A stretch of 41,452 nucleotides of DNA, from the NCBI GenBank assembly GCA_025981645.1, contig JAICXH010000013.1, forward strand, positions 1 to 41,452. The letters run 5' to 3'. This document shows positions 25,765 through 29,151 of the stretch, piece after piece (position 1 is the first letter of the stretch; every line of letters begins with the position of its first letter). The notes below the pieces were generated by a model. It made no database searches. It saw only the letters and a program-made list of their open reading frames with translations, and was not told the DNA's origin. Made by a program: the position numbers and the translations under genes. This DNA comes from Burkholderiales bacterium. GTDB taxonomy: Bacteria; Pseudomonadota; Gammaproteobacteria; Burkholderiales; Casimicrobiaceae.

Positions 25765-28700
25765 ATGACGCGCAGGCCCGCGTTCTGGGTGATCTATGCC
25801 TTGGCGTCGCTAGTCGCGCTGGTCGTCGCGCTCGAGCTCTTTCCGCGCGCCATCCCGATCGTCAACCTGCACATCACGCTGTCACGCGACGAAGCGCTCG
25901 TCCGCGCCCGCGCGATCGCTGCGAAGGAGTCGCTGGCCCCGGCCGACGCGCGCGCGGCAGTGCGCTTCGCGCATGACTCGACGACGCAGGACTACGTCGA
26001 GCTCGAGGGCGGCGGCAAGGCGGCCTTCGCGAAGCTGACGCGCGGCGACGTGTATGCGTCGTACTGGTGGGAGGTGCGCCTGTTCACCCTCGGCGCGATC
26101 GACGAGACGGTGATCCGCCTGGCGCCCGACGGGCGGGTCGACGGCTTCGTGCGCCGGGTACCCGAGACCTGGGTTCGCGACCCGGCGGCGAAGGCGCTCG
26201 ATGAAGTGCAGGCGCGCGCCATCGCCGAGGCCGCCGCGACGCGCGACTGGGGCGTCGACCTCGCGCGTTACCGCTTCCTCGAGCATTCGCAGCAGACCGA
26301 GCCCGGCGGACGCGTCGATCACCACTTCACCTACGAGCGACCGGAGCCGCTCGGCGAGGCGCGTGTGCGGCTGCGACTCACCGTCGCAGGGGATACGCTC
26401 GTCGGCGTCACGCCGTTCGTGCACGTGCCGGAGTCGTTCGCGCGGCGCTACGCGGAGCTGCGTAGCGCCAACGACCTCATCGCCCAACTCGCCGACATCG
26501 CCGCCGGACTGCTGTACGGGATCGGCGGGTGTGTGCTGGGCGTGCTTTGGCTCGCCCGCCGACGCGCGCTGGTGATCCGGCCGGCGCTCGTCGCCGGGCT
26601 CTGCGTCGGTGCGCTGCTCGCCGGATCGTCGCTTGCAGCAGCGCCGGTCGCGTGGTTCAGCGCCGACACGACGCAGACGCTGGCGAGCTTCTGGACGCGC
26701 CAGGCAGCGACCGCACTGGTGATCGCGATCGGCGGCGGAATCGGCTACGCGCTCGCGTTCCTCGCCGCGGAGAGCCTGTCGCGGTCGGCGTTCGCGCAGC
26801 AGCCGCAACTCTGGCGGTTGTGGTCGCGCGGCGCTGCCGCGACCCCGGAGGTCCTCGGACGAACGCTCGGCGGATATTTGTTCGTGCCGATCGAGCTCGC
26901 CCTGATCGCAGCGTTCTACTACGCGACCAACCGCTGGCTCGGCTGGTGGCAGCCCTCGGAGGTGCTCACCGATCCCAACATCCTCGGCTCGGCGGTGCCC
27001 GCCGCAGCGCCGATCGCGATCTCGCTGCAGGCGGGTTTCATGGAGGAGTGCGTGTTCCGCGCAATTCCTCTCTCGCTCGGTGCGCTGATCGGCGCGCGCT
27101 TCGGGCGCCGCGGCCTGGGCATCGCGATCGCCGTCGTGCTGCAGGCGCTGATTTTCGGTTCGGCGCACGCGAACTATCCGGGATTTCCTGCGTGGTCGCG
27201 GCCGGTCGAGCTGTTCGGACCGGCAATCGTCTGGGCACTGATCTTCCTGCGCTTCGGCCTCTTGCCGACGATCGTGCTCCATGCGTGCTTCGACCTCTCG
27301 CTGTTCTCGATCCCGCTGTTCCTCTTCAGCGGCCGCGGCGCGCATGTGCAGCAGGCGCTGGTCATCGCGGCGGCCGCGGTGCCGCTCGCCGTCGTGTTGT
27401 GGCGAAGGTTCGAGGCTGGCGCTTGGCGGCCGCTTTCGGCTGCGCTTCGCAACGGCGGCTGGCGCGCGCCGCTGCCGGCGGCCGAGGCGGCGGCGCCTGC
27501 GCAGCCTCCGGCTGCGGCCGGAGCCCTCGCTACGCGCTTCCAGCGTGCGCTTCCATTGCTCGGCGTCGCAGGGCTCATCGGCTGGGTGCTTGCGACGCCG
27601 TTTCGCGCCGATGTCGCACCGCTGACGATCGATCGCGCGGAGGCGATCAGGGCGGCCGACGCGGCCCTCGCGGCACGCGGCGTGACGCTGTCGCCGGACT
27701 GGCATCGCTTCGCCGGCGAGAAGCTCGCAAATTCCGACCCGCAGCAATGGGCGTGGCACCGCTTCGTCTGGGACGAAGCGGGCCCGAAGTCGTACCGCGG
27801 GCTCGTCGGCGGCATCCTCGCACCACCCGTCTGGGAGGTGCGCTACGCGCGCTTCGACGGCGACGTCTCGGCGCGCGCCGAGGAATGGCACGTCGGCATC
27901 GACAACGACGGCGCCGTACGAAGCTTCGTGCACGTGCTTCCCGAAGGGCGCCCCGGCGCGAGCCTCTCGCGGGATGCCGCGCGCTCGCTGGCTGCGAAGC
28001 GGCTTGCGGCCGAGTTCGGCGTCGATGCCGATAAGCTCAAGGAGGTCGCAGCCGACGAGCAGCGGCGACCGGGGCGCGTCGACTGGTCGTTCGTCTGGGC
28101 GGACCCGAAGCAGGACGTCGGCAACGGCGCCGAAGCGCGCTACGTGATCGGCATCGGCGGCGACCGGCCGGTCGCGGCGGGACGCTTCGTGCATCTGCCG
28201 GAGACGTGGCTGCGCCAGCAGCAAATGCGCGACAACTGGCTGCAGATCCTCGAACTCGCCGCCGTCGCGGTGTTTGCCGCTGCCGCGCTCGCCGCCCTGA
28301 TCGTCGGCATCCGGAGCTGGATCGGACGGCGCGTCGACGGCCGCGCGCTGAAGGCTGTCGCCGGAATCACGTTCACGCTCGTCGTCCTTGCGGCGGCGAA
28401 CGGCTGGCCGCAGACGGCGATGGGGCTGTCGACGACCGAGCCGGTGCCGGCGCAGATCACGATCAAGGTCCTCGCCGTGCTGGCGTCGGCGCTCGTCGCC
28501 GCGCTGGTCGTCGGCCTGTGCGCGGGAGTCGGCGGCTTCGGCGCGCGCACGGACGCGTCGGCCAGGCTCGCGGGCCGCCTCCCGCCGATCGCCGCTGCCG
28601 TCGCGGCCGGTGCCTTCGTCGTCGGACTGCAGGCGATCCTCGCCGCGCTCGGTACGCGCGACGTACCGCTGTGGCCGGATCTCGCGTGGCGTGCGGCGTA

Positions 28701-29151
28701 TTCGCCATGGCTCGCCGCTGCGCTTTCCGGAGCCGCGTTCGTCGTCGTCGCCTGCGTCGATCTCTTCGTCGTTCACGCCGCGTCGCTGTTGACGCGCGGC
28801 TGGACCCGCAGCGTGTGGCTTGCCGTCGTCATCGTCGTCGCGCTCGAGTGCGCTGCCGCACTCGCGCACGGGCGCAGCGCACCGGTCGCGTCGCTCGCCG
28901 CCGGGCTCGCCGCGGGCCTCGCAGCGTCCGCGGTGGTGATCCTGTTCCTGCGCTACGACTTGCGCCTGGTGCCCGCATTCGCGGCGACGGTCGCGCTGCT
29001 CGACGGGTTCGCACAGGCGCGCCGCGCCGACGCGCTCGCGTGGTTCGTCGTCGACGCCGCGGTGACGCTCGTCGTCGCGTGGCGCATGACGGTGTGGCTG
29101 CGCACGGAGCCGCCGGCGCCCTCAGCGATCTCCGCGACTCTTCCCGGGTGA
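25765..29151 (+). CDS. Giant membrane protein with CPBP (Abi/CAAX-type) protease core and duplicated PepSY-like modules
   Basis: A 1128-residue protein, far longer than the usual 200-300 residue CPBP protease. Order: one membrane helix (about 8-25); a soluble module (about 36-240) with WEVRLFTLGAIDETVIRLAPDG and FVHVPESF; and membrane helices (about 245-550) holding the CPBP motifs EECVFR (E427, E428, R432), FGSAH (H468) and HACFD (H506, D510). A Pro/Ala linker (about 570-588) and a helix (about 595-612) follow. A second soluble module (about 617-828) has WEVRYARFDGDV and FVHLPETW, and a second membrane part (about 829-1115) lacks the protease motifs. The two soluble modules look like tandem copies, each with two PepSY-like alpha/beta repeats. 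The core suggests an intramembrane glutamic-type endopeptidase at the inner membrane. The substrate is unknown. The stop overlaps the hrpA start. Confidence 0.8.
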   Translation: MTRRPAFWVIYALASLVALVVALELFPRAIPIVNLHITLSRDEALVRARAIAAKESLAPADARAAVRFAHDSTTQDYVELEGGGKAAFAKLTRGDVYASYWWEVRLFTLGAIDETVIRLAPDGRVDGFVRRVPETWVRDPAAKALDEVQARAIAEAAATRDWGVDLARYRFLEHSQQTEPGGRVDHHFTYERPEPLGEARVRLRLTVAGDTLVGVTPFVHVPESFARRYAELRSANDLIAQLADIAAGLLYGIGGCVLGVLWLARRRALVIRPALVAGLCVGALLAGSSLAAAPVAWFSADTTQTLASFWTRQAATALVIAIGGGIGYALAFLAAESLSRSAFAQQPQLWRLWSRGAAATPEVLGRTLGGYLFVPIELALIAAFYYATNRWLGWWQPSEVLTDPNILGSAVPAAAPIAISLQAGFMEECVFRAIPLSLGALIGARFGRRGLGIAIAVVLQALIFGSAHANYPGFPAWSRPVELFGPAIVWALIFLRFGLLPTIVLHACFDLSLFSIPLFLFSGRGAHVQQALVIAAAAVPLAVVLWRRFEAGAWRPLSAALRNGGWRAPLPAAEAAAPAQPPAAAGALATRFQRALPLLGVAGLIGWVLATPFRADVAPLTIDRAEAIRAADAALAARGVTLSPDWHRFAGEKLANSDPQQWAWHRFVWDEAGPKSYRGLVGGILAPPVWEVRYARFDGDVSARAEEWHVGIDNDGAVRSFVHVLPEGRPGASLSRDAARSLAAKRLAAEFGVDADKLKEVAADEQRRPGRVDWSFVWADPKQDVGNGAEARYVIGIGGDRPVAAGRFVHLPETWLRQQQMRDNWLQILELAAVAVFAAAALAALIVGIRSWIGRRVDGRALKAVAGITFTLVVLAAANGWPQTAMGLSTTEPVPAQITIKVLAVLASALVAALVVGLCAGVGGFGARTDASARLAGRLPPIAAAVAAGAFVVGLQAILAALGTRDVPLWPDLAWRAAYSPWLAAALSGAAFVVVACVDLFVVHAASLLTRGWTRSVWLAVVIVVALECAAALAHGRSAPVASLAAGLAAGLAASAVVILFLRYDLRLVPAFAATVALLDGFAQARRADALAWFVVDAAVTLVVAWRMTVWLRTEPPAPSAISATLPG

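Follow-up and report, generated by a model that had tools for sequence, protein, structure and literature searches.

The window analysed here is a stretch of 41,452 nucleotides from a Burkholderiales bacterium of the family Casimicrobiaceae (contig JAICXH010000013.1). On its forward strand lies a gene (25765..29151; ATG start, open reading frame confirmed) for a two-unit PepSY-CPBP protein of 1128 amino acids. The protein consists of two copies of one unit, a PepSY-like pair joined to a CPBP fold. Each half has one membrane helix, a soluble pair of PepSY-like repeats, and a nine-helix membrane part of the CPBP (Rce1) type, and 20 membrane helices are predicted in all, with both the N- and the C-terminus in the cytoplasm. 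In unit 1, the first membrane helix of the AlphaFold2 model (25777..25851, residues 5-29) precedes a soluble part that is predicted to be periplasmic and to form two helix-plus-four-strand PepSY-like repeats (25870..26430, residues 36-222). The membrane part, identified by a PF02517 match and by the model as a CPBP (Rce1-like) domain with catalytic residues, follows (26431..27417, residues 223-551). Within it are three motifs that are invariant in the alignment of 25 full-length sequences: EECVFR (27043..27060; E427, E428, and R432), the histidine H468 (27166..27168), and H506-x3-D510 (27280..27294), so that motif 3 of this protein is HxxxD. A cytoplasmic linker (27418..27522, residues 552-586) leads to unit 2, of which the first membrane helix (27523..27594, residues 587-610) is again taken from the model, the second PepSY-like pair (27598..28200, residues 612-812) is supported by profile comparison and models, and the membrane part (28201..29103, residues 813-1113) has a CPBP-derived fold without the catalytic residues.

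The whole protein was modelled by AlphaFold2 with a mean predicted local distance difference test (pLDDT) of 89.4 and a predicted template modelling score (pTM) of 0.85; for the C half alone the values are 91.6 and 0.87. The pTM of the full model is close to that of the C half, which suggests a defined arrangement of the two halves. The linker is modelled with low confidence (pLDDT below 50 at residues 569-578) and evolves fast, with a mean pairwise identity of 0.29 and a ratio of nonsynonymous to synonymous substitution rates (dN/dS) of 0.34 against the relative at locus L007 (loci carry L numbers here). Lysine plus arginine make up 21 of 135 short-loop residues on the inside against 5 of 108 on the outside, the membrane helices for this count having been chosen manually among the model's DSSP elements. 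Based on this bias, both soluble pairs are placed outside and both ends of the protein inside.

A preliminary description of the gene, made from its sequence, had proposed two copies of a soluble-plus-membrane unit, and this is borne out by profile comparison and by the predicted fold. The shared blocks on which it drew can be read in the translation: WEVR at residues 102-105 and 690-693, RVD at 183-185 and 771-773, and the closing FVHVPESF (218-225) and FVHLPETW (808-815). The soluble stretches (34-245 against 612-835) align in hhalign with a probability of 99.5 % (expect value, E, 4e-23), and the whole halves with 99.7 % (E 5e-27, 395 columns). The membrane parts alone gave a weak match in the first comparison (65 %, E 6e-5) and a strong one only with a wider sequence set (38 sequences per side; 99.4 %, E 4e-21, 297 columns). 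The control, a profile of the unrelated membrane protein PntB (14 rows), reached no more than 0.9 % against each of ten domain profiles. In the AlphaFold2 model, the helices and strands of the halves correspond element by element, with residues 223-265 matching 813-853, 414-427 matching 981-990, 499-514 matching 1066-1087, and 526-551 matching 1091-1113. By the membrane-profile match and the helix correspondence in the model, the second half shares both descent and fold with the first.

Evidence that the membrane parts belong to the CPBP family comes from the first half. Two of its fragments score 44.3 and 47.7 bits against PF02517 (cut-off 22.4), the higher match lying in the fragment 26890-27330 (E 2e-12), whereas the second half (residues 833-1128) has no PF02517 match up to E 10. 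A Pfam scan of the whole protein gave no hit and missed the CPBP domain, presumably because of HMMER's filters. Likewise, the whole-protein NCBIfam scan found no CPBP or sorting model up to E 1, and it also missed the unit in two further two-unit proteins. It follows from the absence of a Pfam hit to the whole protein that automatic annotation can miss a two-unit protein.

The catalytic residues are distributed as had been described, complete in the first half and absent from the second. In the first alignment, none of the 25 full-length sequences deviates at E427, E428, R432, H468, H506, or D510. In an alignment of 130 units the six residues are complete in all first halves (38 out of 38) and all single units (8 out of 8), and in no second half (0 out of 38), phosphatase-fused unit (0 out of 34), or kinase-fused unit (0 out of 12). 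The 38 two-unit proteins counted comprise 14 of the 25 of the first alignment and 24 from the Acidobacteriota search. A further 33 two-unit proteins from the phylum of a Candidatus Dependentiae record carry the set in 32 first halves and in none of the second halves. Omitted from these counts were L071 and L073 (start missing; each with one CPBP set, in the first half), the fragments L074, L075, L099, L106, and L107, and L171 (no unit hit at the cut-off); L241 and L262, with broken frames, were omitted from the 33. The first half is therefore presumably an intramembrane glutamic peptidase, as judged from its motifs, and the second half is a conserved pseudoprotease.

For the soluble parts, the label PepSY-like rests on predicted fold and not on sequence. 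Residues 37-234 match the C-terminal domain of YpeB (5boi) in VIA-align with a Z score of 12.6 (148 residues aligned, root-mean-square deviation 7.8), and the runner-up structure has a Z score of 5.4. The soluble pair of unit 2 has weak matches only, including some to metalloprotease entries (4k90, Z 6.1; 3nqz, Z 5.8), which we take to be matches to the propeptides of those enzymes. The two soluble fragments of the protein have no Pfam PepSY match (PF03413, PF14620) up to E 10, and that of unit 1 has no family at all. Among 22 units scanned there is one PF03413 match (E 0.015), one PF14620 match (E 0.28), and matches to DUF4901 in eight (E 3e-4 or worse). When solved structures were searched by sequence with the profiles of the first soluble part and of the first unit, neither had a match up to E 1. 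The two PepSY-like repeats that had been read into each soluble part are thus upheld by the predicted structure but not by hhalign, in which the repeats of a pair match at 1 % (S1a/S1b) and 18 % (S2a/S2b).

The preliminary description regarded the architecture as unusual; it is not peculiar to this genome, since records from several phyla contain relatives of full length. In a scan of genome contigs, 25 distinct loci had relatives, in some cases as fragments. The 25 full-length sequences (that of the window included) align over 1180 columns, the others being 31-85 % identical to the window protein (54-56 % for L010), and their two halves and first-half catalytic residues are conserved. The relatives come from close genomes and from metagenome-assembled genome records titled, for example, Burkholderiales, Betaproteobacteria, Calditrichaceae, Thermoanaerobaculales, Planctomycetota, and Candidatus Dependentiae. 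An assembly artefact is ruled out by the recurrence of this protein, with 1105-1145 aa, in separate records. Matches are present in 22 of 61 close genomes (the window's among them), and these 22 all belong to its own family (16 out of 22 genomes of the genus and 6 out of 15 others, one over residues 1-184 only); the 24 genomes from other families of the order have none. Across 398 genomes of the phylum, a profile built from 22 units of all kinds matched only the window's own; an earlier two-unit profile matched that genome and gave two short CPBP matches. In the Dependentiae-record phylum, the two-unit protein is kept in genomes of 0.7-2.4 Mb, and 33 open two-unit frames were fetched in addition to that of L023, from 101 genomes (about one-third of the species). 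One genome has the N- and C-terminal parts of a two-unit protein about 0.65 Mb apart on a 5.1-Mb contig (L106 and L107), as would result from a rearrangement within the gene. The two-unit frame at L079 is open over 2066 aa and has a long extra N-terminal stretch.

The unit also occurs outside two-unit proteins. With the two-unit profile, 9 out of 40 genomes of the phylum of the Caldithrix record (Calditrichota) match, four of them with a two-unit protein, in one case a fragment, and the other five with frames of 814-872 aa that resemble the second half; the three of these five that were scanned with Pfam all end in a SpoIIE phosphatase domain. The same profile matches 39 out of 297 genomes of the phylum of the Thermoanaerobaculales record (Acidobacteriota by NCBI rank), where two-unit proteins of mostly 1118-1203 aa, single units of 558-683 aa, and, at L105, a Ser/Thr kinase in front of the unit were found. 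The broader 22-unit profile, some hits of which in each phylum are short local matches only, matches 77 out of 297 genomes in Acidobacteriota, 21 out of 40 in the Caldithrix-record phylum, 42 out of 101 in the Dependentiae-record phylum, and 11 out of 246 in the Planctomycetota-record phylum. From the weaker places that this search listed in Acidobacteriota, 35 further ones were fetched, and the unit is present in 34. They contain 28 proteins at 23 loci with SpoIIE behind the unit and 11 with a kinase before it, ten of these fusion proteins being confirmed by Pfam. The Planctomycetota-record search adds the kinase fusions L260 and L261 and the single units L258 and L259.

Catalytic units occur alone or as the first half, and non-catalytic units occur as the second half or fused to SpoIIE/PP2C phosphatases or Ser/Thr kinases. 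The fused units are found mainly in Acidobacteriota and Calditrichota, with a few kinases in the Planctomycetota-record phylum. The five classes of unit are homologous in both the membrane part and the soluble part (lowest class pair 95.9 %), and PF02517 is above its cut-off in eight single-unit relatives scanned. The sole NCBIfam match of the single unit L091 is to NF041647, over the CPBP part, at 18.7 bits against a cut-off of 435.

From their motifs, the partner enzymes mostly look active. VALK, HRD, and DFG are present in all 11 kinases examined for the three motifs, and L105 has HRD. Among 34 phosphatases, GGD and T/SDG are each present in 33 and the DD pattern in 30; in L063-L065 and L144 the phosphatase is truncated where the stretch ends. 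With the topology of the window protein, N-terminal kinases and C-terminal phosphatases would both lie in the cytoplasm. Tandem same-strand pairs of phosphatase-unit genes occur at 5 out of 23 phosphatase loci (L149, L152, L154, L159, and L161), and in four of the five the phosphatase of one partner is much less similar to the SpoIIE domain of L062. The kinase-unit frame at L168 (1602 aa) has its kinase at 770-1010, after a long extra N-terminal stretch.

Known systems resemble parts of this protein. CPBP or Rce1-like peptidases (PF02517; MmRce1, MrtX) have the same EExxxR, H, and HxxxD/N motifs, and the first half scores above the Pfam cut-off for this family. The window protein differs in its additional PepSY-like periplasmic domains, in its second unit without catalytic residues, and in having related pseudo units that are attached to signalling enzymes. 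YpeB and other PepSY proteins (5boi; PF03413, DUF4901) share the fold of the first soluble pair, with repeats side by side; here, however, the pair is built into a polytopic protease/pseudoprotease unit, with four repeats in all and no Pfam PepSY match. In the ABC permease/CPBP fusion NF041647, a CPBP domain is likewise fused to other membrane helices; presumably it has no PepSY pair. Enzymes such as RsbU/SpoIIE-type PPM phosphatases and PknB-like kinases, which have varied sensors, can have a relative of the pseudo unit as their membrane part, whereas the window protein has neither kinase nor phosphatase.

The pseudo unit keeps its PepSY pair, has lost the active site, and is joined to signalling enzymes at either end; in this respect it looks like a receptor module, and the inactive unit is probably the signal-receiving part. 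The regulatory role suggested earlier for the second half is plausible to this extent, given that kinases and phosphatases carry non-catalytic units of this kind. With moderate confidence, a reading is favoured in which one chain contains a pseudo unit and an active protease unit, and it is inferred that these pack side by side, sense an envelope signal, and gate cleavage. The two units would form a pseudo-dimer, and the four periplasmic PepSY-like repeats would read a signal from the envelope (a peptide, a misfolded substrate, or a metal, for instance). The pseudo unit would relay this signal through altered packing and so turn on or off the first unit's cleavage of a membrane-anchored substrate. 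Units would thus act in pairs, with one chain here supplying both members, receptor and protease, and the output partner would be an active protease unit in place of a kinase or phosphatase.

The proposal that units act in pairs draws on several reported systems. PPM phosphatases are activated by dimerising linkers beneath diverse sensor domains (PMC12143880); the kinase DbfS has a sensory domain to which the PepSY protein DbfQ binds (PMC12714742); and YpeB is described as likely to dimerise, with contributions from its N- and C-terminal domains (PMC6660665). PepSY domains have also been reported in connection with protease inhibition or metal binding (PMC12714742). The tandem phosphatase-unit genes fit with units acting in pairs.

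On a wider view, the non-catalytic PepSY-CPBP unit would be a transmembrane receptor of an undescribed class, in which a pseudoprotease has become a signal-input domain; in the window protein it would control proteolysis in place of phosphorylation. Such a class would be common to Ser/Thr kinases and PP2C phosphatases in Acidobacteriota, in Calditrichota, and, as a few kinases, in the Planctomycetota-record phylum, and would stand in cis with an intramembrane protease in those phyla, in the Dependentiae-record phylum, and in one betaproteobacterial family. The case for this wider view is considered to be evenly balanced. If it is true, one shared receptor links intramembrane proteolysis to signalling by Ser/Thr phosphorylation. 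Annotators also gain a recognisable unit, which both whole-protein scans missed in the window. Prokaryotic members of the CPBP family have been described as largely unexplored (PMC11980579). Among the literature matches listed, no title or start of an abstract describes this architecture or gives a CPBP-fold sensor for PPM phosphatases or PknB-like kinases, most subscription papers lying outside the search. The sole paper among these matches with both PepSY and CPBP concerns iron deficiency in Bacteroidetes (PMC10434189), and a term search of the main text of a survey of bacterial PP2C phosphatases gave no CAAX, Rce1, or PepSY (PMC12088040).

Several observations weigh against the favoured reading. 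In one protein of the Dependentiae-record phylum (L247, 219-3671), the catalytic set has been lost from the first half too (QERNNN), and protease activity is therefore not always needed. The DxxGKG pattern is present in only 20 of the 34 fused phosphatases, so that not all of them need be active. Foldseek found no match in the PDB at E 0.001 for either model (the whole protein or the C half). No Rce1 structure is among the VIA and Foldseek rows shown; this is counted here as well, though it is not evidence against the fold. No neighbouring gene is common to the betaproteobacterial loci and those of the distant phyla that were examined, and there is thus no hint of a pathway. Against two more distant relatives, the dN/dS of the C half is 0.44-0.58, and the mean pairwise identity of the pseudo membrane parts is 0.31, against 0.58 for the catalytic ones.

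The identity of 0.31 makes the membrane part of unit 2 the least conserved domain apart from the linker, as would be expected if the second half were a decaying relic without function. That explanation is very hard to credit. A full-length second half is kept in all of the 25, 38, and 33 proteins counted, across several phyla, and the PepSY part of unit 2 is as conserved as that of unit 1 (mean column identity 0.62 and 0.63). Against L007, dN/dS is 0.21 for the N soluble part, 0.09 for the N membrane part, 0.16 for the C soluble part, and 0.19 for the C membrane part; in this comparison the C half is under purifying selection.

Two other explanations were weighed. The first half could be a sorting or processing protease that cleaves C-terminal or signal-peptide-like anchors, in the manner of myxosortase, with the pseudo half docking the substrate. 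Myxosortase MrtX, a prokaryotic CPBP protease of known role, is indeed a sorting enzyme (PMC11980579), and the PepSY-like repeats resemble protease propeptides and could bind a peptide. However, MrtX is a protein of 239 residues (PMC11980579), as compared with 1128 here, and similar pseudo units are also part of kinases and phosphatases, in which there would be little reason to dock a protease substrate. The absence of any NCBIfam sorting model from the whole-protein scan argues in the same direction, although weakly, since that scan, like the Pfam one, missed the CPBP domain. A sorting role is considered doubtful. It is improbable that the protein is not a peptidase and that the CPBP site performs another reaction, for example acyl transfer. 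LnsB of staphylococci is, we assume, a CPBP member of an N-acyl transferase system that carries out such a reaction. CPBP is named often in a paper on a two-component lipoprotein N-acyl transferase system (PMC7387801). Here, however, all first halves counted except one retain the full EExxxR, H, and HxxxD set, and no partner gene is common across phyla.

The favoured reading, of a receptor unit gating a protease unit, is compatible with more than one origin of the pair. Trees were built from 74 of 91, 97 of 130, and 47 of 130 units, with the catalytic columns kept in the 74-row tree and removed in the other two. In each of them, the N units group as a single clade and a branch separates the C units from the rest, with Shimodaira-Hasegawa-like approximate likelihood ratio test (SH-aLRT) values for the N and C groups of 98/97 (74-row), 88/79 (97-row), and 97/73 (47-row). 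It is therefore probable, from these trees, that the pairing arose once. Other units fall between the N and C units, and the second half may therefore stem from a non-catalytic lineage that predates the pairing. The earlier suggestion of a duplication followed by loss of catalysis thus has a rival, but a tree in which N and C units are held together is also compatible with the data. This constraint costs 9.4 log units in the 47-row tree and is not rejected (approximately unbiased test, p-AU 0.281).

Fusion of older lineages, in which the C half already existed as a non-catalytic receptor unit when it joined a catalytic one, is given slightly less than even weight. In its favour, a branch of the 97-row tree (SH-aLRT 91) separates N units and single catalytic units from the non-catalytic units, and in the 47-row tree one change of catalytic state is enough when weak forks are left open. 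These two trees disagree on the grouping of all catalytic units, however, and in the 47-row tree six phosphatase units lie among the catalytic ones. The pseudo units also have long branches, which attract each other, and the joint placement of N and C units is not rejected, as given above. Tandem duplication and fusion of two older lineages may thus each account for the pair.

The neighbouring genes were also compared. A PntB gene (PF02233) ends 18 bases upstream of the two-unit gene, and downstream lies a helicase gene with DUF3418 and helicase domains (Pfam), which we take to be hrpA. The order pntB, two-unit gene, hrpA recurs in betaproteobacterial relatives, with other genes intervening in several. 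A functional tie to the transhydrogenase or the helicase was rejected, as these neighbours are not shared with the distant phyla in the loci examined. An antisense open reading frame (25882-28869, reverse strand, 995 aa) is regarded as a mirror frame that arises from GC-rich DNA. The two-unit gene ends in GTGA (29148-29151), in which its stop codon overlaps a GTG that may be the start of the helicase gene.

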